A DNA stretch of 32,987 bases from positions 1 to 32,987 of IMG/VR virus record IMGVR_UViG_3300032331_001279, one strand, 5' to 3'. This DNA comes from a virus. The notes beneath the pieces are model-generated. The model did not search any database and had not been told where the DNA came from. It saw nothing but the letters and a program-made list of their open reading frames with translations. How positions within the stretch are numbered: position 1 is the first letter of the stretch; each line of letters begins with the position of its first letter. Made by a program: the position numbers and the translations under genes. Below, one piece after another: positions 1 through 21,779 of this stretch.

Positions 1-43
1 ACTCTTGGATGCTGAGATCAACTTTAAAATAATTAATGACTGA
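1..43 (+). CDS. 3' end of an upstream gene (partial)
   Basis: Reading from base 2, an open frame of 13 codons ends in TGA at 41-43, overlapping the desaturase start at 36 by eight bases (ATGACTGA). That overlap style is the rule in this window, so this is probably the tail of the preceding gene. Too little is visible to name it, and another frame also stays open until a TAA at 30-32, so the frame is uncertain. Confidence 0.35.
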   Translation, partial: LLDAEINFKIIND

Positions 44-737
44 ATTAATCTATACACTAATAGTAACACATATTACAATCATTTGTGTTACAGTGTTCTT
101 GCACCGCGGTCAAGCACATAAATCACTGATATTCAGTCCTGTACTCAGTCACTTCATGCGTTTTTGGTTATGGTTAACTACTGGCATGATTACTAAAGAA
201 TGGGTAGCAATACATCGCAGACATCATGTTAGCAGCGATGCGCCGGGAGATCCTCACAGCCCTCATGTGTTTGGTATTTGGCGTGTACTATTTGGCGGAG
301 CATTGTTATATAGAAACAGTGCCAAAGAATCGGCAATAATATTACAATACGGTCGCGGCACACCCGATGATTGGTTAGAACGTAAAATATATACTCCCTA
401 CAACTTCCTGGGCATTCTCATAATGCTGTGGATAGACTTACAACTATTTGGATTAGTTGGATTAGTTATCTGGGCAGTACAGATGTTATGGATACCGTTT
501 TGGGCCGCTGGAGTAATTAATGGAGTTGCACACTGGTGGGGTTATCGCAATGGTGAAACTAAAGATAAAAGCACAAACATTAGTCCTTGGGGTATTATTA
601 TTGGTGGTGAATGTCTGCACAATAATCATCATCTGGAACCCGCAAATCCTCGTCTCAGTCGCCGCTGGTTTGAATTTGATATAGGCTGGATGTATATAAA
701 AATATTCGAATTTTTAAGACTTTTAAAAATAAAATGA
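36..737 (+). CDS. Fatty acid desaturase (acyl-CoA/acyl-lipid delta-9 type)
   Basis: A 233-aa integral membrane di-iron desaturase that would introduce a double bond into acyl chains of host lipids. The three histidine boxes are visible: H23-x4-H28 (HRGQAH), H60-RR-H63-H64 (HRRHH) and H195-NN-H198-H199 (HNNHH), plus H166 in a GVAHWWGYRN stretch typical of the family. Hydrophobic segments lie near residues 5-21, 40-52 and 124-160. The length is short next to many family members, but all boxes are present, so it looks functional. It overlaps the upstream reading frame by eight bases and is followed by a 103-base gap with a GC-rich block and a late promoter, so it is not in the same tight run as the sugar genes. 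It could remodel membrane fluidity during infection; that role is inferred. Confidence 0.88.
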   Translation: MTELIYTLIVTHITIICVTVFLHRGQAHKSLIFSPVLSHFMRFWLWLTTGMITKEWVAIHRRHHVSSDAPGDPHSPHVFGIWRVLFGGALLYRNSAKESAIILQYGRGTPDDWLERKIYTPYNFLGILIMLWIDLQLFGLVGLVIWAVQMLWIPFWAAGVINGVAHWWGYRNGETKDKSTNISPWGIIIGGECLHNNHHLEPANPRLSRRWFEFDIGWMYIKIFEFLRLLKIK

Positions 738-740
738 CCT

Positions 741-801
741 TGGCCTTAGGACCGGGTGGGCGGCTGCTGCCTGTGGGAATCGATTCGCTACCGTGACCCA
801 C
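741..801 (+). other. GC-rich intergenic block with predicted hairpins and a palindrome
   Basis: In an AT-rich genome this 60-base block is strikingly GC-rich. It contains a potential hairpin at 759-771 (GGCGG/CTGCC with one G-U pair, loop CTG), a perfect 10-base palindrome GAATCGATTC at 777-786, and a 5-bp complementary pair GTGGG (773-777)/CCCAC (797-801). No T-run follows, so it is not a classical intrinsic terminator. It lies between the desaturase stop and the late promoter. It may be a processed or protein-bound RNA element, or a terminator of an unusual type; the role is unknown. Confidence 0.4.
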
Positions 802-810
802 TAAGTGAGC

Positions 811-818
811 TATAAATA
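811..818 (+). promoter_or_regulatory. T4-type late promoter octamer TATAAATA
   Basis: An exact TATAAATA lies 22 bases before the ATG at 841. In T4-like phages this octamer is the whole late promoter, read by the gp55 sigma factor with the sliding clamp as co-activator. It sits in one of the few true intergenic gaps and would drive the overlapping sugar cassette from 841, implying late expression. Single octamers can arise by chance in AT-rich DNA, but placement and exact match favour a real promoter. Confidence 0.7.
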
Positions 819-840
819 AAACACAACTTCAACTAACATT

Positions 841-1314
841 ATGAATAATCGAATTACACACCAAACTCTGGGCCTAGTTAAAACCGTTTCTAAACCATGG
901 GGGCAAGAAAAATGGATACAACAAGGCCAAGGAGAACATACCTATGTTCTTAAAGAAATAAAACTTAATGCAGGATTTAGAACCAGCATACAAGTACATA
1001 AATTCAAAGCAGAAACTAACTATATTTTAAAAGGTACCGGGCAACTCTGGTACAGTGAACAATTCTTTGATTGTGATCGTTATGCGGCAGGCGGTTATAC
1101 GCAAGAAGAAATCAATGAAATAATTGACACATTACAAGTTATAGTATATAATCCAGGAAGCGTAATGAGTATAGAGCCAGGCACCATACACAGAATGGTT
1201 GCTCTTACTGATTTAGAATTTGTCGAAGCCAGCACTTGCCATTTAGACGATGTAGTAAGATTGCAAGATGACGCTAATAGATCGCACGGTAGAATTGACA
1301 ATGAACATCAATGA
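841..1314 (+). CDS. Cupin protein, mannose-6-phosphate isomerase type II-like
   Basis: A 157-aa single-domain cupin. KPWGQE (18-23) matches the start of the type II phosphomannose isomerase/cupin domain, H53 and E58 in HKFKAET supply metal-binding positions of cupin motif 1, and PGTIHRM is motif 2. It would isomerise a sugar phosphate or bind a nucleotide sugar, feeding the adjacent sugar cassette. It is first in the run behind the late promoter, and its stop overlaps the next start as ATGA. No strong Shine-Dalgarno precedes it. Free-standing cupins of this kind have varied substrates, so the exact reaction is uncertain. Confidence 0.72.
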   Translation: MNNRITHQTLGLVKTVSKPWGQEKWIQQGQGEHTYVLKEIKLNAGFRTSIQVHKFKAETNYILKGTGQLWYSEQFFDCDRYAAGGYTQEEINEIIDTLQVIVYNPGSVMSIEPGTIHRMVALTDLEFVEASTCHLDDVVRLQDDANRSHGRIDNEHQ

Positions 1315-2063
1315 AGAAAACAATATTAATACTTGGAGATAGTTGGACTCAAGGCGAACTAGATATACCCGATGCGGGACCTGGCAGGAAAATATTACAC
1401 AAAGGACTAGAACAATATCTATTAGATAATGAGTATAATGTAGTAAACTTAGGTGGCCTAGGTGAAACAAATTATCATGCTTGCAGACAACTACAAAATT
1501 ATAAAGGACCTGCAGACTATGTGTTTTGGATTACTACAGATCCATTCAGAGATATAAATTCAGAATTGCTGATAAATGCAGATGCTTTTATTAACTTAGT
1601 AGCAGAGTCAAAAAGTATCAGAGCAGCATTTGAAAAAAAATTATTGTCATCGTATGAAAAAATGAACACCATAGCACAAACAAAAAACTTAGTGGTACAT
1701 GTTATGGGTGGCCTTACTAAAATCCATGGAAACATTTCCCAATACAGTAATCTTGTACCTTACATTGATAGTATCAAAGAGTTTTTAGTTCCCGGGTCTA
1801 TAGTTAATCCGCACTTTATTGCATTGACTTTTGATTTTAGTAAAAATATAATAGAAGATATAAAAGATCTACATGTACTAACAGATAATGAATTAATTAA
1901 TTTGAAAGCAGAATATGTATACTTGTCTGACCAACTCAAAGCAGCAGAAGAATTAAGAAGACTGAACCCTGAAGTTTTTTATCCCGATGGTGATCATCCT
2001 AATAGACACGGACATTGGTTATTGTTTAATAAAATCAAAGAATATATAGAAAATGGAAAATAA
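1311..2063 (+). CDS. SGNH/GDSL-like hydrolase
   Basis: A 250-aa protein with an SGNH fold signature: block I GDSW at residues 9-12 gives the nucleophile Ser11, a glycine-rich GGLGETN occupies the block II position, and the C-terminal DGDHPNRHGH (from residue 226) supplies the D-x-x-H dyad D226/H229. There is no signal peptide, so it acts in the cytoplasm. Such enzymes add or remove acetyl or acyl groups from glycans. It starts on the ATGA overlap with the cupin and overlaps the next gene by 11 bases. The block III Asn is not obvious (WITTDPF replaces it), so the family call is good but the activity is uncertain. Confidence 0.68.
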   Translation: MKKTILILGDSWTQGELDIPDAGPGRKILHKGLEQYLLDNEYNVVNLGGLGETNYHACRQLQNYKGPADYVFWITTDPFRDINSELLINADAFINLVAESKSIRAAFEKKLLSSYEKMNTIAQTKNLVVHVMGGLTKIHGNISQYSNLVPYIDSIKEFLVPGSIVNPHFIALTFDFSKNIIEDIKDLHVLTDNELINLKAEYVYLSDQLKAAEELRRLNPEVFYPDGDHPNRHGHWLLFNKIKEYIENGK

Positions 2064-3597
2064 TTTAACAGTATTAATATTGGCAGCTGGATATGGTCGG
2101 CGTATGGGACCGTTTGCTAGAATGGTCAACAAAGGTCTTATTCCTTATGATAACAAACCTTTGATCAGTCATATCATTGATAAATTTGACCCAGACACAA
2201 AATTTGTCATCGCTTGTGGACACATGGGACAACAAGTCAAAGACTACGTTAGTGCTGTACACACAGACAAACAAATTCTGTATGTAGATATTTCTGACTA
2301 TGCAGAAGGCACAACAGGACCTGCTACCACCATACAAAAATGTGCGGCACACATCAATGGCGCATTTATGTGGCTGAGTTGCGATACGCTATTTGACTTT
2401 GACTACAAGGACAAATTGGATCACAACTGGATTGGTGTACATCCTGTGGACAGTGCAATCGCACAAGACTACTGTTGGGTTCGTCGTGATGGCGAGACTA
2501 TCACAGAAATTAAAAACAAAGAGCCCAACAAACAAGCAGTAGATGCTTTTATTGGATTGATGTATTGCAAAGACATGCAATACGTAGAAAATCTAGAACG
2601 TGTATCAGCCAGGGAAGCATACCAAGGACTGCAAGATAATTTGAATCTTAAGGCCCATACTGTGCGTGACTGGAAAGACTTTGGCACTTACGATAAGTGG
2701 GTCGAGCTCAGTGAGGGTCTTAAAGAAATGAGCTTTCCCAAGCCCAATGAACTGTTTTACAAAGACAACAACAAGATCATTAAGTTTACCACAGACAGTA
2801 CACTAACAGATAAAAAAGCAAATCGTGCATTATTAAATCCCCAGTGTATGCCTAACGGTATTAGACGCAGTGGACAATTCTTAGTCTATGACTACGTAGA
2901 AGGCGACATTATCTATAGTCAATTAACACCACAATTATTTGATAAGTTATTGACATGGTCTAATGAAACACTATGGAAACGCAAGTGGTTCCCTAGTACT
3001 GCTCAAACCTGTAGAGATTTTTACTTTAAGAAAACACAGGATAGGCTTAATCAATTCCGTGTCAAGTACAGTGACTGGAGTGAGCCCTGCACAGTCAACG
3101 GCATACCAGTACAAAGCATTGATTACTATCTTAATAAAATAGATTGGGATTGGTTATGCACTACTACCGAGTGGGCATTTATACACGGTGACTTCCAGTT
3201 TGAGAATGTTATCTATAACCCCCAAGCAGATGAATTTACTTGCATCGACTGGCGCACAGACTTTGGTGGAGACAGTTATGGCGACTTGTACTATGACATG
3301 GCTAAGATGCTGGGCGGTATATTATTAGATTATCAAGCAGTTAAAGCAGATAAGTTAGAGTACAACGAACACGCAGACTCTGCTACATTAAATGATTGTA
3401 GCATTGAAAATAGTCGGCATTATGAAATGCAGTTACAAGAATATTGCAAGACATTAGGTCTGGATTGGAGCAAAGTTATATTATTAGTACCAATCATTTA
3501 TTTGAACATGAGTCCATTGCACGATGCACCTTTTGACAAGTATTTGTTTGCACTGGCTCAATTTCATTTTGCAAGGGTCTTACATGAAGTTGAGTGA
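2053..3597 (+). CDS. Bifunctional nucleotidyltransferase / aminoglycoside-choline-kinase-type kinase fusion
   Basis: A 514-aa two-domain protein. The N-terminal part (about 1-230) is a sugar-phosphate nucleotidyltransferase: LAAGYGRRMG (10-19) is the nucleotide-binding loop, followed by a downstream K and an SCDT metal-site-like motif. The C-terminal part (about 240-510) is an APH/choline-kinase fold: HGDFQFEN with H378, D380 and N385 is the catalytic loop, and IDW with D399 is the metal-binding motif. The order activation domain then kinase suggests one chain that phosphorylates a small alcohol or sugar and couples it to a nucleotide, as separate LicA/LicC or AmgK/MurU enzymes do. The substrate cannot be read from the sequence. 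It overlaps the genes on both sides. Confidence 0.85.
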   Translation: MENNLTVLILAAGYGRRMGPFARMVNKGLIPYDNKPLISHIIDKFDPDTKFVIACGHMGQQVKDYVSAVHTDKQILYVDISDYAEGTTGPATTIQKCAAHINGAFMWLSCDTLFDFDYKDKLDHNWIGVHPVDSAIAQDYCWVRRDGETITEIKNKEPNKQAVDAFIGLMYCKDMQYVENLERVSAREAYQGLQDNLNLKAHTVRDWKDFGTYDKWVELSEGLKEMSFPKPNELFYKDNNKIIKFTTDSTLTDKKANRALLNPQCMPNGIRRSGQFLVYDYVEGDIIYSQLTPQLFDKLLTWSNETLWKRKWFPSTAQTCRDFYFKKTQDRLNQFRVKYSDWSEPCTVNGIPVQSIDYYLNKIDWDWLCTTTEWAFIHGDFQFENVIYNPQADEFTCIDWRTDFGGDSYGDLYYDMAKMLGGILLDYQAVKADKLEYNEHADSATLNDCSIENSRHYEMQLQEYCKTLGLDWSKVILLVPIIYLNMSPLHDAPFDKYLFALAQFHFARVLHEVE

Positions 3598-4318
3598 TGC
3601 AATCGCTTGGCAACACGCAGATAAGTTGTTTGTAAGTCTTGCTGCCATACCTGGCAAGACTGGTGAAACATTTTATAACACAATGTTCAAGCATCATAAC
3701 ATCAATGCCGAATATGTTGCATGCGAATGCACGGATTTGAAAGCAGACATGGAGTTAGTGCGTGAACACTGTGCTGGGGCTAGTATTACTATGCCCTTTA
3801 AAAAACAAGTAGAGCAATATTTGGACGTGGATCGGTCTAACTACATGCCTGTTAACACTGTAGTAAATAGAAATAAACTACTATTGGGATTTAATTGTGA
3901 TTATCTAGGCCTTAGTGAAGTTTTATTAGGTAAAATTAAAGACAAAAGTATAGTTTTGTTAGGCGACGGTGCCATGGCCCAGAATGTTAAAACATTGTGT
4001 AAAGAAAATAACATTTATCAAGTACAAAGAGATAATTGGTACCTAAGACATAACCCCGCTGATATTTTAATCAATGCTACCAGCGTGGGTATGGGCACAG
4101 ACGAATCTCCAGTTGATAATATCAATGCAGACTTGGTTGTAGACTGTGTAATAGGCAATACCAAGTTAATCAAAGATGCACAAGCAAAAGGTAAACAAAC
4201 CATAACTGGTGCAGACATATATATTGCACAGTTTAAATATCAGTTTAGACTGTACACAGATCAGTATCCCGATGAGGATGTAGTAAAATTAATAGCAAAG
4301 AAAGTGTTTGATGTTTAA
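3584..4318 (+). CDS. Shikimate 5-dehydrogenase-like protein (AroE family)
   Basis: 244 aa, compared with about 270 for AroE. Family motifs are in order: SITMPFKK (67-74) with the catalytic lysine near K73, PVNTV (89-93), GFNCD with D106 at the substrate Asp position, a nucleotide loop GDGAMA (127-132) and NATSVGM (164-170). It would reduce a keto group using NAD(P)H. In this setting it more likely acts on a cyclitol or keto-sugar intermediate than on shikimate, since no other aromatic pathway gene is present; that is inference. The ATG at 3584 is preferred over an in-frame ATG at 3524 because it aligns with family N-termini and gives a 14-base overlap with the previous gene. Confidence 0.8.
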   Translation: MKLSDAIAWQHADKLFVSLAAIPGKTGETFYNTMFKHHNINAEYVACECTDLKADMELVREHCAGASITMPFKKQVEQYLDVDRSNYMPVNTVVNRNKLLLGFNCDYLGLSEVLLGKIKDKSIVLLGDGAMAQNVKTLCKENNIYQVQRDNWYLRHNPADILINATSVGMGTDESPVDNINADLVVDCVIGNTKLIKDAQAKGKQTITGADIYIAQFKYQFRLYTDQYPDEDVVKLIAKKVFDV

Positions 4319-4781
4319 GTATTTTATCAGTGACGTAGACGGTTGTTTAAACGATGGCGTAATTTATTGGGATCCGACGGGACGAAAACCATTTAAGGCA
4401 TTTGGTAATTACGACCACGACGGAGTTAAATTGTTAAAACCGCATGTGAAATTAATTTTTATCAGTGCAGACAAAACTGGCTGGGAAATTATGCGTACAC
4501 GTATTGTTAACCATATGAACTGTGAATTACATTGTGTTCCAGAATCCGAAAGATTTAAATTTGTTGAAAATTACGGATTCGAAGATGTTGCTTACATGGG
4601 AGATGGTATACACGATGCTAAGATAATTAAAGCGGCTAAGTTAGGCATAGCACCAGCACAGGCCAGAGTTGAAGCTCGTAATTCCGCAGATTACGTAACC
4701 CCCAGTAGAGGTGGGGAAGGCGCATATTTGGATGCTTGTATACATGTTATGAAGATTATGGGAATACCTTATGAATTTTAA
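4311..4781 (+). CDS. HAD-superfamily phosphatase, KdsC-like
   Basis: A 156-aa cap-less HAD phosphatase the size of KdsC (3-deoxy-D-manno-octulosonate 8-phosphate phosphatase). Motif I DVDGCLNDG carries nucleophile D8 and acid/base D10, motif II is ISAD, and motif IV is MGDGIHD. The C-terminal SRGGEGA stretch is also KdsC-like. It would remove phosphate from a keto-sugar acid or related phosphate. The ATG at 4311 is chosen over an in-frame TTG at 4308, and it overlaps the AroE-like gene by eight bases. Its partner is probably the aldolase-type barrel directly downstream, as KdsC-type phosphatases commonly follow an aldol step. Confidence 0.87.
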   Translation: MFKYFISDVDGCLNDGVIYWDPTGRKPFKAFGNYDHDGVKLLKPHVKLIFISADKTGWEIMRTRIVNHMNCELHCVPESERFKFVENYGFEDVAYMGDGIHDAKIIKAAKLGIAPAQARVEARNSADYVTPSRGGEGAYLDACIHVMKIMGIPYEF

Positions 4782-5748
4782 ACTAGGGTTTGGCCCAATG
4801 AGCATATTAATCAATGATGCCATGGCTCGATATGCAAGAGAAAATCAAAAACCATTGATGTTTATTGCCAGTCGTAATCAAGTCGACGCAGACAGCGGCT
4901 ATGTGATGACTACCAAAGAGTTAGCAGAACAGTTGCAACCGTTGCGTAGTGAGTATATAATGCTGTGTAGAGACCATTGTGGTCCGTATTTTTTAGATGT
5001 AGAGAAATCACTGAGTCTAAATGACGCGGTAGAAGCAACCAAAAAAACTATTGCAGGGGATATTGAAAACGGATTTGATTTAATACATATAGACACTAGT
5101 CGTTGTGATAATCCGTATCATGTTGCAGATATATTGTTTAATTTTAGTTTAAGGTTAAACCCAAATATTAAATTTGAGTTTGGTACAGAAGAAAATGTAG
5201 GTGTGGCAGCTGGAGTTAAAAAGTATCAAGAAGATGTTAAATTTGCTAGTCAGTATCCTAACATGGAATTTGTAGTAGCACAGACTGGAAGTTTGACTAT
5301 GGAAGACCGGCAAGTAGGCAGTTTTGATGTACCAATGGTTAAAAAGTTAGTTAACTTTGCCAAAACTGCCGGAGTTAAATTAAAAGAGCACAATGCCGAT
5401 TATTTAACTGCTGAACAAATACAACTTAGACGACAAGCAGGAGTTCATGCTTGTAACATAGCACCACAGTTAGGCGTAATACAAACTAAACGTATTTTGG
5501 AACTAGCAAGACAATTTGACATCGACTCTAGTCAATTTGAAAATATGGTTTTAGCCAGCGAAAAATGGCGTAAGTGGATTATTGATGGCAATGACACAGT
5601 AAAGATAGCAGTTGCAGGACACTATTGTTTTAGCACTGATGTTTATAAAAAATTAGAAGATCAACTAAGTTGGCACTGCGATATAGAAAAAGAAATCGAA
5701 CAAGGCATCGCAACTTGTTTAAATTTATACTATGAGAATTTATTATGA
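4771..5748 (+). CDS. TIM-barrel protein related to GatZ/KbaZ (tagatose-bisphosphate aldolase non-catalytic subunit family)
   Basis: 325 aa, shorter than the roughly 420-residue GatZ/KbaZ proteins. ASRNQVD (33-39) followed by SGYVMT and RDHCGPYF (67-74) match conserved blocks of that family. GatZ itself is called non-catalytic in the tagatose pathway, but no GatY-type catalytic partner is present here, so this protein may act alone on another substrate. It sits between the KdsC-like phosphatase and the 363-aa unknown, overlapping both (11 bases and ATGA), which points to the same pathway. The family match is fairly good; the reaction is unknown. Confidence 0.72.
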   Translation: MNFKLGFGPMSILINDAMARYARENQKPLMFIASRNQVDADSGYVMTTKELAEQLQPLRSEYIMLCRDHCGPYFLDVEKSLSLNDAVEATKKTIAGDIENGFDLIHIDTSRCDNPYHVADILFNFSLRLNPNIKFEFGTEENVGVAAGVKKYQEDVKFASQYPNMEFVVAQTGSLTMEDRQVGSFDVPMVKKLVNFAKTAGVKLKEHNADYLTAEQIQLRRQAGVHACNIAPQLGVIQTKRILELARQFDIDSSQFENMVLASEKWRKWIIDGNDTVKIAVAGHYCFSTDVYKKLEDQLSWHCDIEKEIEQGIATCLNLYYENLL

Positions 5749-6836
5749 TAATTTGGTTCAACTGTAAAATAACTGACATACGACTAAACCCACAAAGTAT
5801 TGTGCGATATGGTTTAAATAACGACAATCGTTTTGATGTAGCACGATATAGCTTTGCTAGTTTTGCTCCTTTGGAACCCTTGACCACTAAATTTATTTTT
5901 AATTTAGAAATGGCCGATGGCTATGAAGGTCGCGAAGGAGAAATGGCTGAGTGGCTTAAAGGTATCTTTCCTGAAGAAAAATTAAGTCTACATTGGCATC
6001 GCTGTAACAACATTGCACAATGGCGTGAAGTTAAAGCGGAAATGGATCTACTAGATGATGATTTAATTTTTCCTGCAGGAAATGAAGATCATATCTTCTT
6101 AGATGATAACATTGATGTATTCCGTGAAGGGCTAGAGTTAATTGCCGCAGATCCTGATCCCTATGCTGTGTTAATGACCAGTCATTATCCGGAAAGTATT
6201 AGAGCTGTGTCCTATTTCAATGGTCAGCCAGCCAGCTACAATTACCTAACTTATGTCATGGAAAACAATGATGCTATTAGGGTTATGAAAAAAGAATACT
6301 TTGAATGGTATTTGGATCAAGTTACTAATCCGGATCAATTTATTTTTAGAACTGAACATTGGAACAACATCGGAATCCTACGTAATAAACTGTACATTCC
6401 CACCAAAGAACAGTTTAGACACTTTGACGGTTACCACCATGTTCAAATAGGGCCAGATGTTTGTCCTCCTTTGGAAATTCCCGCAGGATTCTTTGAAGGT
6501 ATGACCATACGCTACGGATTCAATGATAGACAAGCTGATGCAGTAAACATTAACCCCATGGCCAAGGACTTGTACACTGTTAATCCAGAGTCTGGCACAG
6601 ACTATAGATTTACTTTGGATACACTACCTGCATTCTGGAAGCCTTACATCAAACAAGTAGTAAGCGCAGACAACATTGATGAGGAAAAAATGAATCAAGC
6701 ATATGATACATACTTGTTGTCATTGACTAGAATCTTTATCAATTGGCATCATATAGGTGTAATGTTTAACGATTCAAATTGGCCACCTGCACAATGGCTT
6801 AACAACCACACCAAAGCCTACGTATTTGAAGAATAA
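5745..6836 (+). CDS. Unknown protein of the sugar cassette, possibly glycosyltransferase-like
   Basis: A 363-aa soluble protein starting on the ATGA overlap with the GatZ-like gene. I do not recognise a named family with certainty. It is acidic and rich in Trp, Tyr and His. LLDDDLIFPAGNEDHIFLDDN (split around residues 103-124) contains Asp clusters that could be a DxD-type metal site of a GT-A glycosyltransferase, and the central region holds several conserved-looking Trp/His blocks such as RTEHWNNIG. As the last gene of the overlapping cassette it could attach the activated sugar to its acceptor. The glycosyltransferase idea is inference only. Confidence 0.6.
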   Translation: MIIWFNCKITDIRLNPQSIVRYGLNNDNRFDVARYSFASFAPLEPLTTKFIFNLEMADGYEGREGEMAEWLKGIFPEEKLSLHWHRCNNIAQWREVKAEMDLLDDDLIFPAGNEDHIFLDDNIDVFREGLELIAADPDPYAVLMTSHYPESIRAVSYFNGQPASYNYLTYVMENNDAIRVMKKEYFEWYLDQVTNPDQFIFRTEHWNNIGILRNKLYIPTKEQFRHFDGYHHVQIGPDVCPPLEIPAGFFEGMTIRYGFNDRQADAVNINPMAKDLYTVNPESGTDYRFTLDTLPAFWKPYIKQVVSADNIDEEKMNQAYDTYLLSLTRIFINWHHIGVMFNDSNWPPAQWLNNHTKAYVFEE

Positions 6837-6841
6837 CGTTG

Positions 6842-6870
6842 TTGCTTTTGTTTGGCATTTCACGTATAAT
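6842..6870 (+). promoter_or_regulatory. Sigma70-like promoter before the DsbA-like gene
   Basis: TTGCTT (6842-6847), a 17-base spacer and a perfect TATAAT (6865-6870) lie in the gap after the sugar cassette. A Shine-Dalgarno GGAGA follows at 6881-6885, six bases before the ATG at 6891. The -35 is weak but spacing and -10 are ideal. Confidence 0.68.
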
Positions 6871-6890
6871 AATTTTTTTAGGAGAAGAAT

Positions 6891-7157
6891 ATGAGCGACT
6901 ATAACCGCAGTTTTAATGGCGATGCCAAAATTAAACTCACACAATTAATCAACGAAGGTATGCAAGTGTTACAAGAAGTTGAAGACTTAAATGCAGGCCT
7001 TAATGAAACAATCAAAGCAGTAGCAGAAGAACTTGAAATCAAACCTGCTACACTTAAGAAAGCAGTTAAGATTGCACACAAGGCTAAACTTGGCGAAACC
7101 AATCGTGATCATGATGAGCTGAATACTATTTTGGAAACAGTGGGCAAGACTCTTTGA
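6891..7157 (+). CDS. dsbA: Small helical protein resembling T4 DsbA (dsDNA-binding late-transcription factor)
   Basis: An 88-aa, almost wholly helical protein, about the size of T4 DsbA (89 aa). It has the central LEIKPATLKKAVKIAHKAK region followed by an acidic C-terminal helix (DELNTILETVGK), matching the general pattern of this family in T4-like marine phages. DsbA binds near late promoters and assists late transcription. It has its own promoter and a good ribosome binding site. Identification rests on size, layout and the Lys-rich helix; it is not certain. Confidence 0.6.
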   Translation: MSDYNRSFNGDAKIKLTQLINEGMQVLQEVEDLNAGLNETIKAVAEELEIKPATLKKAVKIAHKAKLGETNRDHDELNTILETVGKTL

Positions 7158-7444
7158 AAGATATAGTATATGGAATCTTCAACTGGATCAGACTGGACTG
7201 GACGAGTAGTAGAATTCGTTTTTGTCTTGAGAGCCTTGCTTGGGGTATATCTGTTGGTTGTTCTATCACAATGGCCATCACCGTCCCTAATCCCCCACTT
7301 CTGGCCTTATACCCAGTATGGATTCTTGGCTGTGGCATTTACGCTGGGTGTGCTTATAGTCGGCGTTCCTTTGGTATGCTTGCTAACTATATCCTCCTCA
7401 CCACCATCGACACCATCGGACTAATTAGGATGTTGATATCGTAA
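7154..7444 (+). CDS. Small multi-pass membrane protein (TTG start)
   Basis: A 96-aa membrane protein starting with TTG that overlaps the previous stop as TTGA and ending as TAATG on the next start, so it is translationally coupled on both sides. Hydrophobic segments lie near residues 25-44, 50-68 and 73-93. The AITVPNPPL and FGMLANYILLTTID blocks look like a conserved small phage membrane protein, but I cannot name a function. A competing ATG frame at 7170-7424 is rejected because it lacks coupling on either side. Confidence 0.65.
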   Translation: MKDIVYGIFNWIRLDWTSSRIRFCLESLAWGISVGCSITMAITVPNPPLLALYPVWILGCGIYAGCAYSRRSFGMLANYILLTTIDTIGLIRMLIS

Positions 7445-8070
7445 TGTTTTCGGCTGTTATATACACTCCTGGAAGAACTGGTTCAAAATTAATTGAACGT
7501 AATTTAATTGATCATTTTAGTTCGCTACATAGATCGTGGCAAAATAAGAAACTTTTTGATTCCGGAATTGTTCATTGTCATAACCCGTTATATGTTCCAC
7601 CAAATAAAAATTTTATCTGTATAATTAGTACTCGACGTAATGAATTTGATGCAATACTCAGTATGATAACCACCAAACAAACTAAAGAATTTGCAACTTA
7701 TACAAATAAAACTATAGAACCTTTTGAAGTAAGTGAAACTGAATTTAAATCTATGTTTTACTATTATACGTGTTTTTATGAAATAATTAATCGCAGTTTT
7801 TTTGACAGTGTAGTAGAAATGGAATACGAATCTTTGATCAGTAATCCAAAATATTTGTTTTCAAAATTGGGGATTGATCAAGTAACTAACTACAAAAAAA
7901 TAAAGAAATCCCCCTACGACTATCATAGTTTAATAACTAATGTAAACGAACTTAAAAAATTGTATCTTGAAATGAAATCAACTCCGCTGACTCAAGAAGA
8001 TATCAATCAAGTAAAAAATAATATAGAATTAGATCTGCATAACCTTAGAGTATACGGCATAGTTTTTTAG
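7444..8070 (+). CDS. Sulfotransferase-like P-loop protein
   Basis: A 208-aa protein with an N-terminal P-loop-like TPGRTGSKL (8-16), the 5'-phosphosulfate-binding motif of PAPS sulfotransferases, and ISTRRNEFDAI (61-71), which fits the 3'-phosphate-binding strand-helix. It would move sulfate from PAPS to a sugar or lipid. It is AT-richer than the DNA polymerase gene next door, consistent with recent acquisition. It begins on a TAATG overlap. The family assignment is good; the acceptor is unknown, though the glycan genes in this window are natural candidates. Confidence 0.72.
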   Translation: MFSAVIYTPGRTGSKLIERNLIDHFSSLHRSWQNKKLFDSGIVHCHNPLYVPPNKNFICIISTRRNEFDAILSMITTKQTKEFATYTNKTIEPFEVSETEFKSMFYYYTCFYEIINRSFFDSVVEMEYESLISNPKYLFSKLGIDQVTNYKKIKKSPYDYHSLITNVNELKKLYLEMKSTPLTQEDINQVKNNIELDLHNLRVYGIVF

Positions 8071-8081
8071 GATAAACACAC

Positions 8082-10745
8082 ATGAGTTATGTTGACGCAT
8101 TATTTGATAGACAAAAAGACCGCATACACGTTGTAGAACGTGTCAACGGAGAACGAATATACACAGAGTATCCCGTTAACTATATCTTTTATTACGATGA
8201 TCCCAAAGGCAAACATCGTACTATATACGGAACACCTGTGAGTAGATTTGCCACACGCAATGGCAAAGAGTTCCAAAAAGAAATCAGAGTGCAAGGCAAT
8301 AAACGGCTATGGGAAAGCGATTTCAAACCCGTGTTCCGTTGTCTTGAAGAAAACTATTTAGGCGCAGAACCCCCTAAACTACACACAGCGTTTTTTGACA
8401 TCGAAGCTAACTTTGATCCCGAACGTGGCTTTGCGCCTACCAATGACCCGTTTAATAACATCACTGCTATCAGTGTTTACTTAGACTGGTTAGACAAACT
8501 TGTTACTCTGGTTTTACCGCCCAAGAGTATGAGCTGGGAAACAGCAGAAGAAATCTGTGCTAAGTTTGAAAACTGTTTTATCTTCGATCGCGAAGAAGAT
8601 ATGCTGGATACATTCTTAAATTTAATCGACGACGCAGATATCATAACTGGATGGAACAGCGAAGGCTATGACATTCCCTACACCATTGGTCGTATTACTC
8701 GTGTGCTGAGTAAAGACGACACACGCCGTATGTGTTTATGGGGACAATTTCCCAAGCAAAGAGAATTTGAAAGATTTGGCGCAAGCAATACAACATTTGA
8801 TTTGATTGGTCGTGTGCATATGGACTATATGCAACTCTATAGAAAATACACATATGAAGAACGCCATAGCTATAGTTTGGATGCTATTGGCGAATACGAA
8901 CTTGATGAACGTAAAACACCTTATGAAGGTACGTTGGATCAGTTGTATAACAAAGATTTTGAAAAGTTTATTGTTTACAACAGACAAGATACTCGCTTGA
9001 TAGCGAAACTGGATAAGAAACTTCGTTTCTTAGATTTGGCAAATACCATTGCTCACGATAACACAGTGTTATTGCAGACAACAATGGGTGCCGTAGCAAC
9101 TACTGAACAGGCAATTATCAATGAAGCACACAGTCAAGGATTGGTCGTACCTAACAGAAAAGGACGAGAGGAAGAAGTCGAATCACAGGCAGCAGGTGCC
9201 TATGTTGCTTACCCCAAAAAAGGTATGCACGAATACATCGGAGCCATTGACATCAACTCGCTGTATCCCTCGGCTATTCGAGCCCTTAACATGGGACCAG
9301 AAACAATCATAGGACAACTACGTCCCATAATGACTGACAAACTAATTGCAGAACGCATAGCTGGGGGATCGAGCTTTGCGGCTGCTTGGGAAGGTTTATT
9401 TGGTAGCTTAGAGTATGAAGCTATGATGGCTGGAGAAGTAGGCACAGAACTAACTATAGACTGGGAAGTAGACGGTACCAGTGATGTATGCAGTGCCGCA
9501 GATGTATGGCGCATTATCTTTGACCGTAACAAACCCTGGACTGTTAGTGCAAATGGTACAATCTTTACTTACGAAAAGAAAGGTATCATTCCCGGGTTGT
9601 TGGAACGTTGGTACGCCGAACGTAAGGAAATGCAAAAGAAATTAAAGGACTGCACAACTCCAGAAGACCAAGAGTATTGGGACAAGCGACAGCTAGTTAA
9701 GAAAATTAACTTGAACAGTTTGTATGGTGCTATTTTAAATCCAGGTTGTAGATTCTTTGACCACAGGATTGGACAAAGTACAACACTAACAGGACGTACC
9801 ATTGCCAAACACATGGATGCTTTTGTCAATGAAGCAATCACTGGCAAGTATGATCACGTAGGTGATGCAATTATCTATGGTGACACTGACTCTGTGTATT
9901 TTAGTGCTTGGCCCATTGTTCGAGCAGATGTAGAAGCTGGCCGCATGGAATGGAACAAAGATGTTTGTATTCAAGTCTATGACAGTATTGCAGATCAAGT
10001 CAATGAATCGTTTCCTGCATTTATGGAACGTGCTTGCCATTGCCCCAGAGTCAATGGTTCAATTATCAAAGGCGGGCGTGAACTGATTGCTACCAAAGGA
10101 TTGTTTATTAAAAAGAAACGCTATGCGGTATTGATCTTCGACAAAGAAGGTAAACGCAAAGACGTTAAAGGTAAACCTGGTGATGTAAAAGCTATGGGCT
10201 TGGACTTGAAGCGCAGTGATACTCCTAAGATTGTACAGGACTTCTTAAGTGAAGTTTTGTTAGACGTGCTAACTGATGCTAAACGTGAAGATGTTATTGA
10301 AAAAATCAAAGACTTTAAACTTAAATTCCAAGATCGTCCTGCTTGGGAAAAAGGCACACCCAAACGTGTCAACAACTTAACCAAGTACACAGCAGAAGAA
10401 TCTAGACTGGGTAAGGCTAACATGCCAGGACATGTACGTGCGGCAATGAATTGGAATAACTTACGTAAGATGCACGGTGATAATTATTCTCTGACCATTG
10501 TTGACGGTATGAAAACCATTGTATGTAAACTTAAACAAAATCCACTGGGATATACATCTGTGGGCTATCCCACTGACGAAAGTCATATTCCACAGTGGTT
10601 TAAAGACTTACCTTTTGACGACAATGAAATGGAAGCTGGTATTGTGGATCAAAAAGTAGAAAATTTGTTGGGTGTACTAAATTGGGACATCACTGAAAAC
10701 ACCAACATTAACAGTACATTCGATAGTTTGTTTAGCTTTGAATAA
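8082..10745 (+). CDS. 43: Family B DNA polymerase, T4 gp43-like
   Basis: 887 aa against 898 for T4 gp43. The proofreading exonuclease carries FFDIEAN (D106, E108), GWNSEGYD (N192, D197) and YNRQD (Y299, D303). The polymerase domain has motif A DINSLYPS (D390), motif B KINLNSLYG (K541-G549) and motif C YGDTDS (D601, D603). All catalytic residues are intact and there is no intein. The C-terminus ends in STFDSLFSFE, matching the short clamp-binding tail of gp43. It replicates the phage genome with the clamp at 12888-13619. A weak AGGA precedes the ATG. Confidence 0.97.
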   Translation: MSYVDALFDRQKDRIHVVERVNGERIYTEYPVNYIFYYDDPKGKHRTIYGTPVSRFATRNGKEFQKEIRVQGNKRLWESDFKPVFRCLEENYLGAEPPKLHTAFFDIEANFDPERGFAPTNDPFNNITAISVYLDWLDKLVTLVLPPKSMSWETAEEICAKFENCFIFDREEDMLDTFLNLIDDADIITGWNSEGYDIPYTIGRITRVLSKDDTRRMCLWGQFPKQREFERFGASNTTFDLIGRVHMDYMQLYRKYTYEERHSYSLDAIGEYELDERKTPYEGTLDQLYNKDFEKFIVYNRQDTRLIAKLDKKLRFLDLANTIAHDNTVLLQTTMGAVATTEQAIINEAHSQGLVVPNRKGREEEVESQAAGAYVAYPKKGMHEYIGAIDINSLYPSAIRALNMGPETIIGQLRPIMTDKLIAERIAGGSSFAAAWEGLFGSLEYEAMMAGEVGTELTIDWEVDGTSDVCSAADVWRIIFDRNKPWTVSANGTIFTYEKKGIIPGLLERWYAERKEMQKKLKDCTTPEDQEYWDKRQLVKKINLNSLYGAILNPGCRFFDHRIGQSTTLTGRTIAKHMDAFVNEAITGKYDHVGDAIIYGDTDSVYFSAWPIVRADVEAGRMEWNKDVCIQVYDSIADQVNESFPAFMERACHCPRVNGSIIKGGRELIATKGLFIKKKRYAVLIFDKEGKRKDVKGKPGDVKAMGLDLKRSDTPKIVQDFLSEVLLDVLTDAKREDVIEKIKDFKLKFQDRPAWEKGTPKRVNNLTKYTAEESRLGKANMPGHVRAAMNWNNLRKMHGDNYSLTIVDGMKTIVCKLKQNPLGYTSVGYPTDESHIPQWFKDLPFDDNEMEAGIVDQKVENLLGVLNWDITENTNINSTFDSLFSFE

Positions 10746-11859
10746 AAAAATAATACCAATTATTAATTTAAACAATGAATTTTATAAGAATAGAATTCCA
10801 CTGAACTACGACGATGTGGTTGATGCTCATAAATGGAACCGTCATGGCACTGGAATTAATTTTAATAAAGACCTAGGTCTCAAAGGTCGTTATTGTTATC
10901 ACCCATTTAATACCATTACTGTGGACAGTGCAGGTGATGTTTATATGTGTGTATGTCAAGCATGGTTACCTATCAGCGTAGGTAAAATTTGGGAATTTGA
11001 AACCCTGGAAGACATTGTCAGTAGCGTTAGGGCGAGAGAAATACAAGCCAGTATACTAGATGGATCTTACAGATACTGTGACGAAGGTTCTTGTAGTTTA
11101 ATTTTATCAAATGATCTGTCGGAACGTATAGATCACAGGCCGGACACTGTTAATTGGATTAATTTTGCAATAGATTCTAGCTGTAATTTAACATGCCCTA
11201 GTTGTAGGAAAGAATTCATATTTACCAGCGAAGGTCCTGAATTTGATCACAAAGTAAAACTAGTAGAACATTTAGTTAAGTTGATTGAAAATCAAGATCA
11301 CTTTATAAAATTTACGCTAAGTGGTGACGGTGATCCTTTTGCTAGTCTGATTTACCGACATTTTTTAAGTAAGTTAGATGTTAAAGATAAAAGCAACGTA
11401 GAAATAGAAATTGTTACCAATGGTATATTAGCCAAAGCACATTGGCACAAAATGTCAGGAATTTATAACAACGTAGTTCGATTTAAAATTAGTTTTGATG
11501 CTGGCTCTGAACAGGTATATAATATTACTCGTCGTGGTGGCGACTGGAACAAATTGCTTGAAAGTTCTAAATATATGATAAAATGGAAACAAAAACATTA
11601 CAGTCAAATGCAGTTAACTTCTAATTTTGTAGTACAACAAGCAAATTATAAAGACATGTTAACTTATGTAGAACTTTGCGATAAATTAGGATTTGATGAA
11701 ATTAATTTTCAAAAAATAGACGACTGGGGTACGTTCAGCGACTATGCCAGCACAGCAGTTTGGCAACCTAGTCACCCAGAACACGAAGAATATTTGAAAT
11801 ATTTCAATGACCCTGTCATAAAAAACAAAAAAGTTAACTTAACTAATTTGAAAGATTAA
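10738..11859 (+). CDS. Radical SAM protein with an N-terminal SPASM-like Cys region (TTG start)
   Basis: A 373-aa protein. C149-x3-C153-x2-C156 (CNLTCPSC) is the radical SAM cluster motif, followed by SGDGDPF (195-201) at the SAM-binding GGE position. Upstream, C53, C71, C73, C114 and C119 lie in a RYCYHPF...VYMCVC...YRYCDEGSC arrangement resembling a SPASM auxiliary-cluster domain, which normally sits C-terminal to the core. The only reasonable start is TTG at 10738, overlapping the polymerase stop by eight bases. The substrate is unknown; SPASM enzymes often modify peptides or proteins. It is AT-richer than the polymerase gene. Confidence 0.8.
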   Translation: MNKKIIPIINLNNEFYKNRIPLNYDDVVDAHKWNRHGTGINFNKDLGLKGRYCYHPFNTITVDSAGDVYMCVCQAWLPISVGKIWEFETLEDIVSSVRAREIQASILDGSYRYCDEGSCSLILSNDLSERIDHRPDTVNWINFAIDSSCNLTCPSCRKEFIFTSEGPEFDHKVKLVEHLVKLIENQDHFIKFTLSGDGDPFASLIYRHFLSKLDVKDKSNVEIEIVTNGILAKAHWHKMSGIYNNVVRFKISFDAGSEQVYNITRRGGDWNKLLESSKYMIKWKQKHYSQMQLTSNFVVQQANYKDMLTYVELCDKLGFDEINFQKIDDWGTFSDYASTAVWQPSHPEHEEYLKYFNDPVIKNKKVNLTNLKD

Positions 11860-15522: not shown

Positions 15523-15765
15523 ATGACTGTTGAACAAGCCGGAAATTTTTTAATTGGATCCATATTAGCTGGTATGGGGTTCTGCGTAATTACCATTGCC
15601 ATTCTTGTTATTAACAACCTATTTCATAAATATTGGAAACCTGTTACTTGGGGATTCTTACCCGAGTCAATGCGGACACCTTATCGTTTTCAACAACCGC
15701 ATGAACAAATGGATCACTATGAACCTAAAATAGAACCTACTTTGGACGATAAAGTTAAAAAATGA
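15523..15765 (+). CDS. Small single-pass membrane protein
   Basis: 80 aa with one strong hydrophobic segment at about 8-33 followed by a cytoplasmic-type Pro/acidic tail. It overlaps the next gene by four bases (ATGA). Function unknown. Confidence 0.65.
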   Translation: MTVEQAGNFLIGSILAGMGFCVITIAILVINNLFHKYWKPVTWGFLPESMRTPYRFQQPHEQMDHYEPKIEPTLDDKVKK

Positions 15766-16643
15766 AAAGTCTTGTAATTGGTATGGGTATAGGACAGTTG
15801 TATAAAACTGTGCTGACAGAGTTAGGGCACGAAATTGTAACAGTAGACATGGATCCTGCAAAAGGTGCAGACTTTTATGATTATGGGTTTGCATTTGCCG
15901 CACATGGTCATTTTGATACTGTACATATTTGTACCCCAAATTACACACACATCAATCTAGCCAGACATGCTGCCATCCACGATGCTGGTATTGTATTTGT
16001 TGAAAAGCCTGGCGTAGAAAACAGTGGTATATGGGCACAAATGTGTGAGGACTTTCCTAACACACGTTTTATGATGGTTAAAAATAATCAATGGCGTGAC
16101 AACATAGAACATCTAAAGGCTTTAGCCGATCAAGCAAAGACAGTAAACTTAAACTGGATCAACAAAGACCGTGTGCCTAATCCAGGTACTTGGTTTACCA
16201 CTAAACAATTGGCATTTGGTGGTGTTAGTAGAGACTTGATGCCTCATTTGTTAAGTTTATATATTGCACTAAATCCAGTGTGGCGCACAGACAATGTTAA
16301 TAAAATTGAAGCAGAAAGAAAATGGCAGCTCAATGAGTTAACTACCACAGACTATGGTCAAGTCAAAGCAGATGGCATTTATGACGTTGATGATGTATGT
16401 CGTATGATGTTTACTGATAAATGGAATCTAACTGCCGACTGGCGTAGTATGGATCAGGATCAACGCAACATTGAATTTATCATGCAGGATGACTCAGTAG
16501 AAACATTTGAACTAGGACTTTGTCCAGAGTATGCGTACAAAGAAATGATTCGTGACGCTGTAGCAAACCTAAATAACAATAAGTTCTGGAAAAATCAATA
16601 TGCCCAGGACATGTGGATCCATCAATTAATCGAAAACGTATGA
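15762..16643 (+). CDS. Gfo/Idh/MocA-family NAD(P)-dependent oxidoreductase
   Basis: 293 aa. An N-terminal Rossmann fold with GMGIGQLY (7-14), then HICTPNYTH (55-63) and the family marker EKP (81-83). The usual second-domain His is probably in the PHLL block. Such enzymes oxidise or reduce a sugar ring position, often on nucleotide sugars such as UDP-N-acetylhexosaminuronate. Its stop overlaps the next dehydrogenase as ATGA, and both lie upstream of a glycosyltransferase and an aminotransferase, suggesting a sugar-modifying pathway. Slightly short for the family. Confidence 0.82.
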   Translation: MKSLVIGMGIGQLYKTVLTELGHEIVTVDMDPAKGADFYDYGFAFAAHGHFDTVHICTPNYTHINLARHAAIHDAGIVFVEKPGVENSGIWAQMCEDFPNTRFMMVKNNQWRDNIEHLKALADQAKTVNLNWINKDRVPNPGTWFTTKQLAFGGVSRDLMPHLLSLYIALNPVWRTDNVNKIEAERKWQLNELTTTDYGQVKADGIYDVDDVCRMMFTDKWNLTADWRSMDQDQRNIEFIMQDDSVETFELGLCPEYAYKEMIRDAVANLNNNKFWKNQYAQDMWIHQLIENV

Positions 16644-17548
16644 ATAGAATATTAGCGACTCGGGGCGATGGCGCCTTTTATGAAACTACCTATGAGCGTC
16701 CTGTTTGTAGCGACAATGAAATAGGTGTAGTATCTATTATGACTGGTGTATGCCGCAGTGACATAGATATGATGTCAGGTAATTTTGGTCCACTGCCCCT
16801 ACACATGCAAGGACACGAAGGACTGGGTCAAGTGGTAGAAATTGGCAAGAATATCAAAGACGTTGATATCGGAGACTTTGTCGCTACACGTGGTGAACCT
16901 GCGTATGCCGACCAATACAATGTGCGCTGTGAAGAATATGTCCCTGTGCCAGAAGCGCACCCCCGCTACATATTGGAACCTGTGGCCTGCGGCATTAACA
17001 TTGTGTATCAAGCAGTACGTGAAATTGCAGAACGTGCAGGTCCAGGTAAGAGACTGCTTATATTAGGCAGCGGATTCCTTGCGTGGGTTGCATATAACAC
17101 ACTACTGCTCAATCACTTGGATGACTTTGAAATAACTGTAGTGGGAACCAGCAATAGAGACCTATGGGGAGATAGACTAAAACCCATTTATACAGGTACG
17201 TATGATGTTGTCATTGACTTGGGTGGCAGACCCACAGTGTTTACAGAAAACATTTTAAACAACGAAGCATTGGTTGTGTTCGGAGCACAGAAAACGGTTA
17301 CAACTGATTTCAGTAACTTACTTTGGAAAGCCTGTACAATGATCTTTCCTAGTCCAAGAACGGATCGTTTTTATAGTTGTATGCGCGATGCCGCATATTG
17401 GATCGAAAACGGTGATATCAATGTTGACAGTTTCTGGACAAAAGGCTATAATAGAGACACTGAGTGGCAACAGGCCTTCAGCGATGGAATCAACAGACCT
17501 CATGCTTACAGCAGAGGTTACATTAAATGGATAGATCATGGCAATTAA
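16640..17548 (+). CDS. Medium-chain (zinc-type) dehydrogenase/reductase
   Basis: 302 aa. GVCRSD with C38 and GHEGLGQVV with H59-E60 are the catalytic zinc site of the alcohol/sorbitol dehydrogenase family; EPVAC (113-117) and the Rossmann loop GSGFLA (143-148) follow. The structural-zinc four-cysteine lobe is absent. The C-terminal domain is shorter than in typical 340-aa enzymes. The ATG at 16640 is chosen over 16613 for its ATGA overlap. It probably oxidises a sugar alcohol or sugar hydroxyl together with the Gfo/Idh enzyme. Confidence 0.8.
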   Translation: MNRILATRGDGAFYETTYERPVCSDNEIGVVSIMTGVCRSDIDMMSGNFGPLPLHMQGHEGLGQVVEIGKNIKDVDIGDFVATRGEPAYADQYNVRCEEYVPVPEAHPRYILEPVACGINIVYQAVREIAERAGPGKRLLILGSGFLAWVAYNTLLLNHLDDFEITVVGTSNRDLWGDRLKPIYTGTYDVVIDLGGRPTVFTENILNNEALVVFGAQKTVTTDFSNLLWKACTMIFPSPRTDRFYSCMRDAAYWIENGDINVDSFWTKGYNRDTEWQQAFSDGINRPHAYSRGYIKWIDHGN

Positions 17549-18077
17549 TACAAGTGGACGTCAACAAGTAGATTATTTTGTTGGCATTGAAGTAGAAAAT
17601 ACTGCAATGAAAGGTCAAAAGACTTTGTTTGTAGTAGGAGTTAAACCTGTAGACGAAATCATTGCGCTTGCAGAAAAACACGATGTAAAACATTTGTACT
17701 TTGGTACAAGCCAAAGTTTTCATCCACACAGTCCTTATGACTGGGCCGCATGGGATGATATGATTAAACCTTTGTTGGTCAAAGACTATTGGGTTACGCT
17801 AGACTTTGGTGTTGAGTATTGTAAGGAAATTCACGAACAAGCATGGTGCGAATATAATACTTTTATTCCTATGATCAGTGTTAAGATTCCCTACATCAAA
17901 CTCTACAACTATAATGCTACAGTTAAAATTGATGACAACACTTGGGGTGATACCAATCCCGGTGTGTGGTGTCATCCACTAAACGAATTACTAACCAGGA
18001 ATGTATACACAGACTGGAAGGACTACACCGGAGATTTTCCTGTAACGCCAACACATAGTGGAAGTGAAGAAGAATGA
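17538..18077 (+). CDS. Conserved-looking hypothetical protein
   Basis: 179 aa, overlapping its neighbours by 11 and 4 bases. Compact soluble protein with Trp/Tyr-rich blocks (KHLYFGTSQSFHPHSPYDW, ISVKIPYIKLYNYNATVKI, TNPGVWCHPLNELL). It looks like a protein family shared by marine phages, but I do not recall a function. Its position beside the T-fold-like gene may indicate a nucleotide-related role; that is speculation. Confidence 0.7.
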   Translation: MAINTSGRQQVDYFVGIEVENTAMKGQKTLFVVGVKPVDEIIALAEKHDVKHLYFGTSQSFHPHSPYDWAAWDDMIKPLLVKDYWVTLDFGVEYCKEIHEQAWCEYNTFIPMISVKIPYIKLYNYNATVKIDDNTWGDTNPGVWCHPLNELLTRNVYTDWKDYTGDFPVTPTHSGSEEE

Positions 18078-18508
18078 ATCAAGAACAACGAGTAACTGTA
18101 GATAGGATCATGGAAGCCGCTGATCGTAAAATATGGATACGTTTTCAAAAAGAAGGTATTCATAAATACCCAGCGGCACTAGAAGATCCTAAATTAGCAG
18201 ATGTACAATTCCTTGGTTTTCCTCATCGTCATATTTTCCATTTCCGGGTGTGGATTGATGTGTTCCACAATGACCGGGATGTTGAGTTCATACAATTCAA
18301 ACGCTGGTGCGAATCGCTGTATAACGGTGACAATTCCGTTCTAGCACTAGACTACAAGTCATGCGAAATGATCGCAGATGATTTGTATGTACAAATTGCT
18401 GCTAAATATCCAAAACGCACAGTATGGATTGAGGTCAGCGAAGACAGTGAAAATGGTGCATTAATCAAATACGAATTAACAAAACCCTACAACTCAATCA
18501 AAATTTAA
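18074..18508 (+). CDS. Candidate T-fold (QueD/PTPS-like) protein with HRHxxH motif
   Basis: 144 aa. FPHRHIFHF (49-57) gives H51, H53 and H56, comparable to the zinc ligands of PTPS/QueD; HNDRDVEFIQFKR resembles the strand-loop that ends in a D-F-x-x-L-K pattern; SCEMIADDLYVQIAAKYP resembles the P-T-x-E-N-L-A helix; and WIEVSED (118-124) resembles the C-terminal V-x-V-x-E-T with E120 and E123. The order matches a T-fold. It lacks the exact QueD motifs, so it is not a standard QueD. In a 7-deazaguanine phage it could process CDG or a related base. The assignment is my own pattern matching. Confidence 0.5.
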   Translation: MNQEQRVTVDRIMEAADRKIWIRFQKEGIHKYPAALEDPKLADVQFLGFPHRHIFHFRVWIDVFHNDRDVEFIQFKRWCESLYNGDNSVLALDYKSCEMIADDLYVQIAAKYPKRTVWIEVSEDSENGALIKYELTKPYNSIKI

Positions 18509-18511
18509 TAA

Positions 18512-19120: not shown

Positions 19121-19135
19121 TCTTAGGAGAATAAA

Positions 19136-19339
19136 ATGGGACAACCTAAATGGGTAGAAAAATATCTGCGTATGAAGCCCGAAGTCAATCAAATTTTCAA
19201 CGACTTAGAAGGCTACAAAGATTACTGTAGACTTAACATGTTGAAGTTCGACGAAAAGGATTTGTATCGCAGTGAACAATACCGCAAATACGAAAAATAT
19301 CGTAACTGGTTAAACCGTCAAGCAGAAGCACATAGATAA
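19136..19339 (+). CDS. Small basic hypothetical protein
   Basis: 67 aa, charged and helical with many Tyr and Arg residues (YLRMKPEVNQIFNDLE...YRKYEKYRNWLNRQ). Clear AGGAGA ribosome binding site. Stop overlaps the glycosyltransferase ATG as TAATG. Function unknown. Confidence 0.7.
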   Translation: MGQPKWVEKYLRMKPEVNQIFNDLEGYKDYCRLNMLKFDEKDLYRSEQYRKYEKYRNWLNRQAEAHR

Positions 19340-21022: not shown

Positions 21023-21023
21023 T

Positions 21024-21764: not shown

Positions 21765-21779
21765 TTTAAGGAGAACATT

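Follow-up and report, generated by a model that had tools for sequence, protein, structure and literature searches.

The virus record IMGVR_UViG_3300032331_001279 (32,987 bases; hereafter the window, meaning the whole stretch analysed) carries a T4-type DNA polymerase gene (8082-10745) and belongs to a marine, T4-related phage. At 841-6836, a first-pass annotation of the DNA described seven overlapping genes for an unusual sugar, keto acid or cyclitol, and we confirmed all seven open reading frames (ORFs), on the plus strand with consecutive overlaps of 4-14 nt. The conserved cassette proper comprises the first six genes (841-5748), whereas the last gene, for a protein of 363 amino acids (aa), belongs to a separate locus. 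We consider it likely that the cassette encodes a nucleotide-sugar pathway that supplies glycosylation during infection with an unusual sugar, the most likely target being a host surface glycan. The observations behind this reading are the domains, the conserved catalytic residues, the co-occurrence of the genes, the polysaccharide context of cellular copies and the alternative positions of the cassette.

Recurrence and context of the gene set

The gene set of the cassette is not a chance assembly. A scan with the GatZ-like protein returned 72 viral loci from IMG/VR and 211 relatives from GTDB genomes, of which the best 80 were kept. Loci were counted as modules when the nucleotidyltransferase (NT)-kinase fusion was no more than six genes away from the GatZ-like one. 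Clustering by similarity in the 91 module loci gave an NT-kinase fusion in 87, a cupin in 77, a HAD phosphatase in 74, an AroE-like protein in 28, a C-methyltransferase in 16 and a short-chain dehydrogenase/reductase (SDR) in seven; near-copies are among those counted, and some genes are missed by the simple ORF caller (for example, the cupin of L114). Scanning with a profile of the fusion gave 361 viral relatives, of which the best 80 were kept, and in the distant viral loci that were read (34-40% identical), GatZ-like and AroE-like genes were present in 32/32 and a cupin gene in 30/32.

The AroE and HAD families likewise kept to the module. All 13 AroE matches and 52 of 53 HAD matches were in module-bearing contigs, the 53rd HAD match being at a contig end, though distant stand-alone relatives would be missed because the search patterns were derived from module members. 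Independent occurrence of the genes in related phages with no common neighbours, which the first-pass annotation had named as evidence against a pathway, is thus not what we found, and, of the shared arrangement that it proposed looking for, the gene order is kept in other phages and the gene content is conserved in cellular polysaccharide loci as well.

In phages the order is cupin, NT-kinase, a variable slot, HAD and GatZ. The slot holds the AroE-like gene in the window, a C-methyltransferase gene in L016, L115 and L153 and an O-methyltransferase-like gene in L111 (judged by eye), and is empty in most of the L116-L155 group; AroE and C-methyltransferase were mutually exclusive in the viral loci clustered. 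Every distant big-phage locus that was read has AroE, although the slot is variable elsewhere. Since the slot may contain a dehydrogenase, a C- or O-methyltransferase, an SDR or nothing, the AroE-like enzyme is probably not part of the core but a tailoring step in the branch to which the window belongs. Many distant loci have a ~490-aa gene after GatZ, a carbamoyltransferase where checked, and a NodU-type carbamoyltransferase gene in this position in L332, L341, L345 and other big-phage loci suggests that the sugar may be carbamoylated there. In a phage island (L008), the module lies beside genes for a DegT-family pyridoxal phosphate enzyme, split transketolase-like genes and several sugar epimerase/transferase genes.

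Cellular modules were found in Woesearchaeota, Pacearchaeota, Nanoarchaeota, several lineages of the candidate phyla radiation (CPR), Omnitrophota, Pelagibacteraceae, Prochlorococcus, Nitrotoga and others. Among their neighbours are genes for a polysaccharide flippase, group 1 glycosyltransferase, NeuB, UDP-GlcNAc 2-epimerase and UDP-glucose dehydrogenase; the modules of CPR bacteria, DPANN archaea, Pelagibacter, Prochlorococcus and Nitrotoga sit in polysaccharide loci. In a tree of GatZ proteins, nearly all viral sequences formed one group (96/73), near a CPR/DPANN/Pelagibacter group. Further groups comprised Prochlorococcus and proteobacterial copies, and Firmicute copies from operons for a phosphotransferase system (PTS); L019, L152 and L156 are long branches whose placement is unsure. 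The Firmicute copies that were read (L074, L080), from catabolic PTS operons, were set aside as an outgroup, and the GatZ matches from Listeria, Enterococcus and Klebsiella were only ~33% identical. In L074 and L080 the GatZ-like relative comes directly after a fructose-type PTS, and none of the neighbouring genes shown encodes a GatY-like aldolase. Such an arrangement would be predicted for a single enzyme acting on the imported sugar phosphate, and the protein is a candidate catabolic epimerase that works alone.

Enzymes of the cassette and the proposed route

Profile matches bore out the domain identities claimed in the first-pass annotation; the 363-aa protein matched nothing in Pfam or NCBIfam. 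The GatZ-like protein matched Pfam PF08013 (GatZ_KbaZ; 1.1e-8, score 34.6 against a cut-off of 26.7) and scored 29.5 against NCBIfam agaZ_gatZ, far below the cut-off of 568.8, which places it, by profile score, within the superfamily and outside the equivalog. Asp68, His69 and His207 are invariant in 138/138 GatZ-like homologues and position 140 is Glu or Asp in all; the counterparts of E. coli Asp87, His88, Glu171 and His257 (metal ligands and catalytic Asp) are thereby all kept. E. coli GatZ and KbaZ, long termed aldolase chaperones, epimerise fructose 6-phosphate to tagatose 6-phosphate in vivo (PMC11907403). The pathway claim of the first-pass annotation, a coherent activated-sugar pathway with conserved content, is supported, with its aldol formation better read as C4-epimerisation of a ketose 6-phosphate (PMC11907403). 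That the enzyme instead builds a new carbon-carbon bond, for example between dihydroxyacetone phosphate and an aldehyde, giving a sugar of unusual length or branching that is then dephosphorylated, reduced, phosphorylated and activated, seems to us unlikely. Its fold and catalytic residues are as in class II aldolases, the two residues separating GatZ from aldolases differ again in the cassette proteins, and the C-methyltransferases in the AroE slot of some modules would suit unusual sugars, but those members of the GatZ family that have been assayed to date are epimerases, and no aldolase activity was detected in one study (PMC11907403).

The cupin matched PF01050 (1.4e-6, above cut-off) and, aligned with the ManC C-terminus, keeps Gln51, His53, Glu58, His117 and a DDVIRLQD-type tail. 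The HAD protein matched the KdsC family (1.6e-14). The fusion matched NTP_transf_3 (2.3e-11) and APH (5.6e-4), the latter being the only, weak match of the kinase domain. In its AlphaFold model (predicted local distance difference test score, pLDDT, 94.3), the NT half resembles UGPase, RmlA and MurU. The kinase motifs HGD-N and D-WR are invariant across 45 sequences, and the NT motifs are also intact. Its MurU equivalog score was 34.8 bits, below the cut-off of 250, and its PHROGs matches were to families of unknown function only. The cassette thus encodes together a HAD phosphatase, an APH kinase and a nucleotidyltransferase, as in MupP-AmgK-MurU, where the kinase is an APH-type anomeric kinase (PMC5371407).

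The AroE-like protein, whose start we took as the conserved ATG at 3584 (3524 in the ORF list), matched Shikimate_dh_N (5.5e-9); its best NCBIfam equivalog score was 113.5 bits, below the cut-off of 306. Lys73, Asp106, Gly127 and Gly129, the catalytic pair and NAD(P) glycine motif, were present in 60/60 module members. A shikimate-dehydrogenase-family enzyme reduces 5-ketofructose (PMC7954740; PDB 7cok), and the NT domain of the fusion also matches phosphocholine cytidylyltransferase, both of which would suit a route in which the AroE-like enzyme reduces the dephosphorylated ketose and the fusion phosphorylates the polyol and links it to CTP, giving a CDP-alditol comparable to those of teichoic-acid-like polymers. 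We rate this as very improbable, given that most of the 91 module loci are without AroE and that the cupin isomerase would be left without a role. The SGNH protein matched GDSL weakly (0.014) and has the motifs GDSW and DHPNRHGH, with HPNRHGH and GDSW common to L114. Because only L114 (37% identical) shares with the window an SGNH gene in the cassette, between cupin and NT-kinase, we do not count it as core.

The 363-aa protein has a confident AlphaFold model (pLDDT 91.7), for which Foldseek gave weak GT-A-type matches (E = 5e-5 in PDB, 6e-7 among viral structures), to nucleotidyltransferases and glycosyltransferases alike. On this structural evidence it is probably a glycosyltransferase. A profile comparison of its family with a 274-aa neighbour of the cellular cassettes showed no similarity. 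In L185, L196, L200 and L201, the 363-aa gene has as its neighbour a separate APH kinase and nucleotidyltransferase pair instead of the GatZ module, an arrangement that would fit a transferase supplied by different donor cassettes. The AroE-like, SGNH and 363-aa genes, which had been counted as pathway members, are present, but the first occupies a variable slot, the second is rare and the third has its own locus.

From the enzyme families, their residues and the MupP-AmgK-MurU plan, we infer a series of epimerisation, isomerisation, dephosphorylation, re-phosphorylation, activation and tailoring, the choice of every substrate, the step order, the nucleotide and the acceptor included. The GatZ-family enzyme would invert C4 of a ketose 6-phosphate by retro-aldol/aldol chemistry, with the conversion of fructose 6-phosphate to tagatose 6-phosphate as precedent, and the ManC-type cupin would convert the ketose phosphate to an aldose phosphate. 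The HAD phosphatase would remove the phosphate, the fused APH kinase would add a new one, probably at the anomeric position, and the fused nucleotidyltransferase would form a nucleoside diphosphate (NDP)-sugar. The AroE-like reductase and SGNH hydrolase may tailor the sugar, with the adjacent 363-aa protein as candidate transferase. The simplest product of such a scheme is an NDP-D-talose-type sugar, although we think it quite unlikely that this is the actual one. We see no indication of a cyclitol or a keto acid, as had also been offered: no sugar-phosphate cyclase or inositol-phosphate synthase domain was detected among the seven proteins with Pfam and NCBIfam profiles, and the cassette has no phosphoenolpyruvate-dependent synthase.

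Several observations weigh against a nucleotide-sugar pathway of this form. Some modules are without the cupin or the HAD phosphatase, and AroE has no obvious job in a route to NDP-talose. Glu44 of GatZ is replaced by Ile or Val (position 32) and Lys279 by Asn229 in 138/138 homologues (the alignment at Lys279 being weak), and the substrate may therefore differ from fructose or tagatose 6-phosphate. No significant sequence match to the kinase domain was found in PDB; it has no close match among characterised sugar kinases, so that the proposed phosphorylation may not be anomeric. Finally, the structural matches underlying the transferase call have TM-scores below 0.6.

Exchange between sites and the upstream motif

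Comparison of contigs indicates that the cassette is exchangeable. In L157 and L158, whose versions of the 363-aa gene are nearest to that of the window (93% and 89%), the desaturase gene is directly followed by the 363-aa gene at the cassette site. By blastn, window 35-772 aligned with L157 6200-6937 and window 5741-7432 with L157 6997-8687; the joint in L157 is 60 nt with a sigma70-like box, against which the window has ~5 kb extra. In other phages the module adjoins a ClpP gene, and L115 (327 kb) and L153 (339 kb) carry the 363-aa gene and the module in separate places. We dropped the idea that L157-type phages are wholly without the module: contigs bearing the 363-aa gene alone and contigs bearing the module at the ClpP locus resemble complementary fragments, and we make no claim of module loss since these contigs may be parts of module-carrying genomes. 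The NT-kinase fusion is 97% identical to that of L001 and the cupin 70%, suggesting recombination within the module. In codon usage there was no clear signal that the cassette had been imported recently (correlation 0.934, versus 0.959 +/- 0.011 for random splits, minimum 0.918), and megablast of the region against phage records gave no match.

A late promoter had been proposed for the operon. TATAAATA occurs once in the window compared to 3.3 occurrences expected by chance, making the lone match uninformative. Across 73 viral loci, however, the NATAAATA motif class showed strong sense-direction enrichment 12-50 nt upstream of ORFs, with sense versus antisense counts of 12 vs 0 for TATAAATA, 15 vs 1 for GATAAATA and 25 vs 1 for AATAAATA. 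Given this enrichment and the description of NATAAATA as a late promoter of T4-like cyanophages (PMC2984593), the motif is real and the late-promoter reading reasonable. In L004, L005 and L108, a TTGACA-N17-TATAAT-like box occupies the homologous spot, where it has decayed in the window.

The late promoter-like motif and the position of the 363-aa gene, which in its own locus adjoins the DNA polymerase gene, would also be in keeping with an activated sugar that the 363-aa protein transfers to phage DNA or virion proteins rather than to the host surface. We hold this to be improbable, as the cellular copies are in surface-polysaccharide loci, members of the thymidylate synthase/dCMP hydroxymethylase family turned up in only 4/18 viral records searched (most of them fragments) and 31/32 big-phage module loci had no 363-aa gene in the fetched stretch. 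Glycosylation of a host surface glycan remains our preferred reading.

Features of the window at and around the cassette
Feature	Position	Strand	Basis
Segment absent at the homologous site of closest relatives L157 and L158	773..5740	+	blastn
TATAAATA, T4-type late promoter-like motif	811..818	+	30 nt upstream of cupin ATG
Cupin, homologous to ManC phosphomannose-isomerase domain; proposed ketose/aldose-phosphate isomerase	841..1314	+	PF01050, ManC alignment
Hydrolase of SGNH/GDSL type; optional decoration step (transferring or removing acyl groups)	1311..2063	+	Weak GDSL match, motifs
Nucleotidyltransferase (MobA/MurU/RmlA-like) fused to APH-family kinase	2053..3597	+	Profiles, AlphaFold model, motifs
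Shikimate-dehydrogenase-family oxidoreductase, probable tailoring enzyme	3584..4318	+	Profile, Lys73 and Asp106
KdsC-like HAD phosphatase	4311..4781	+	KdsC family profile
Class II aldolase-fold protein of GatZ/KbaZ type; proposed sugar-phosphate 4-epimerase or aldolase	4771..5748	+	GatZ_KbaZ profile
363-aa protein, probable GT-A-fold glycosyltransferase, outside the exchangeable cassette	5745..6836	+	AlphaFold/Foldseek, own locus

Elsewhere in the window, 36-737 encodes a DesA-family fatty acid desaturase (NCBIfam, above cut-off) that is conserved at this locus in relatives. An apparent second insertion is the 208-aa gene at 7444-8070, which is low in GC (0.284) and weakly matches sulfotransferases; L157 is continuous across that point. 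Genes for a GFO_IDH-like oxidoreductase, a zinc alcohol dehydrogenase, a DegT-type aminotransferase and a GTP cyclohydrolase match lie within 15762-22283, a possible second sugar-modification region. Radical-SAM genes are present at 10738-11859 (with a SPASM domain) and 26050-26955.

Significance and comparison with known systems

Phage-borne sugar-nucleotide clusters are known, such as heptose and lipopolysaccharide genes in cyanophages, as is each of the enzyme classes. A literature search for this gene set found no published description, and the gene combination, its breadth and the variable slot appear undescribed. A bolder possibility, which we offer tentatively and with less than even expectation, is a new nucleotide-sugar pathway, centred on an aldol enzyme of GatZ type, whose product would be a sugar so far unrecorded in nature. 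Large groups of aquatic phages would share it with marine bacteria, CPR bacteria and DPANN archaea, and for phages it would serve as a mobile, switchable means of recoating the host that is re-tailored by dehydrogenase, C- or O-methyltransferase or carbamoyltransferase. The cassette represents an unfamiliar enzymatic plan, common in aquatic phages and reaching lineages whose surface sugars are almost unknown. The identity of its product, if found, would open a way to study the changes that phages make to host surfaces and would provide a probe of surface chemistry in CPR bacteria, DPANN archaea and marine oligotrophs. It would also assign a biosynthetic role to a subfamily of GatZ-like proteins whose present annotation is that of a non-catalytic aldolase subunit.

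The individual enzymes have recognisable counterparts. With E. coli GatZ and KbaZ, the cassette protein shares the class II aldolase-type fold, the catalytic Asp-His, the acidic ligand and the distal His, but it forms a distinct subfamily marked by the Glu44 and Lys279 replacements, is shorter (325 versus 420 aa) and is encoded in a biosynthetic cluster rather than one for galactitol or N-acetylgalactosamine catabolism. The cupin has the Gln-His-Glu-His ligands and DDIVR-type tail of the type II phosphomannose-isomerase domain of ManC/AlgA; unlike that domain, it stands alone, has an insertion and is altered at some active-site His/Arg positions. The AroE-like protein shares the catalytic Lys-Asp pair and NAD(P) glycine motif with HI0607 (1npy) and 5-ketofructose reductase (7cok) but sits in a sugar-nucleotide cluster, and at the second Ser of the SxS motif the window protein has Ala, the position being variable overall.

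As a whole, the cassette resembles cyanophage heptose clusters, which encode phosphoheptose isomerase, nucleotidyltransferase, epimerase and cupin, in its phage-borne sugar-phosphate isomerase, kinase and nucleotidyltransferase genes and small cupin, and differs in having a GatZ-like enzyme and an APH-type fused kinase instead of phosphoheptose isomerase. With MupP-AmgK-MurU peptidoglycan recycling it shares a HAD phosphatase, an APH-fold kinase and a MurU-like nucleotidyltransferase in series, but here the kinase and NT are fused, NT first, the HAD is of KdsC type, there are an additional putative epimerase, isomerase and dehydrogenase, and we expect another substrate. Sequence scores do not bear out orthology to MurU and AmgK, and the cassette would accordingly be understood as working like MupP-AmgK-MurU while not being a member of that system.

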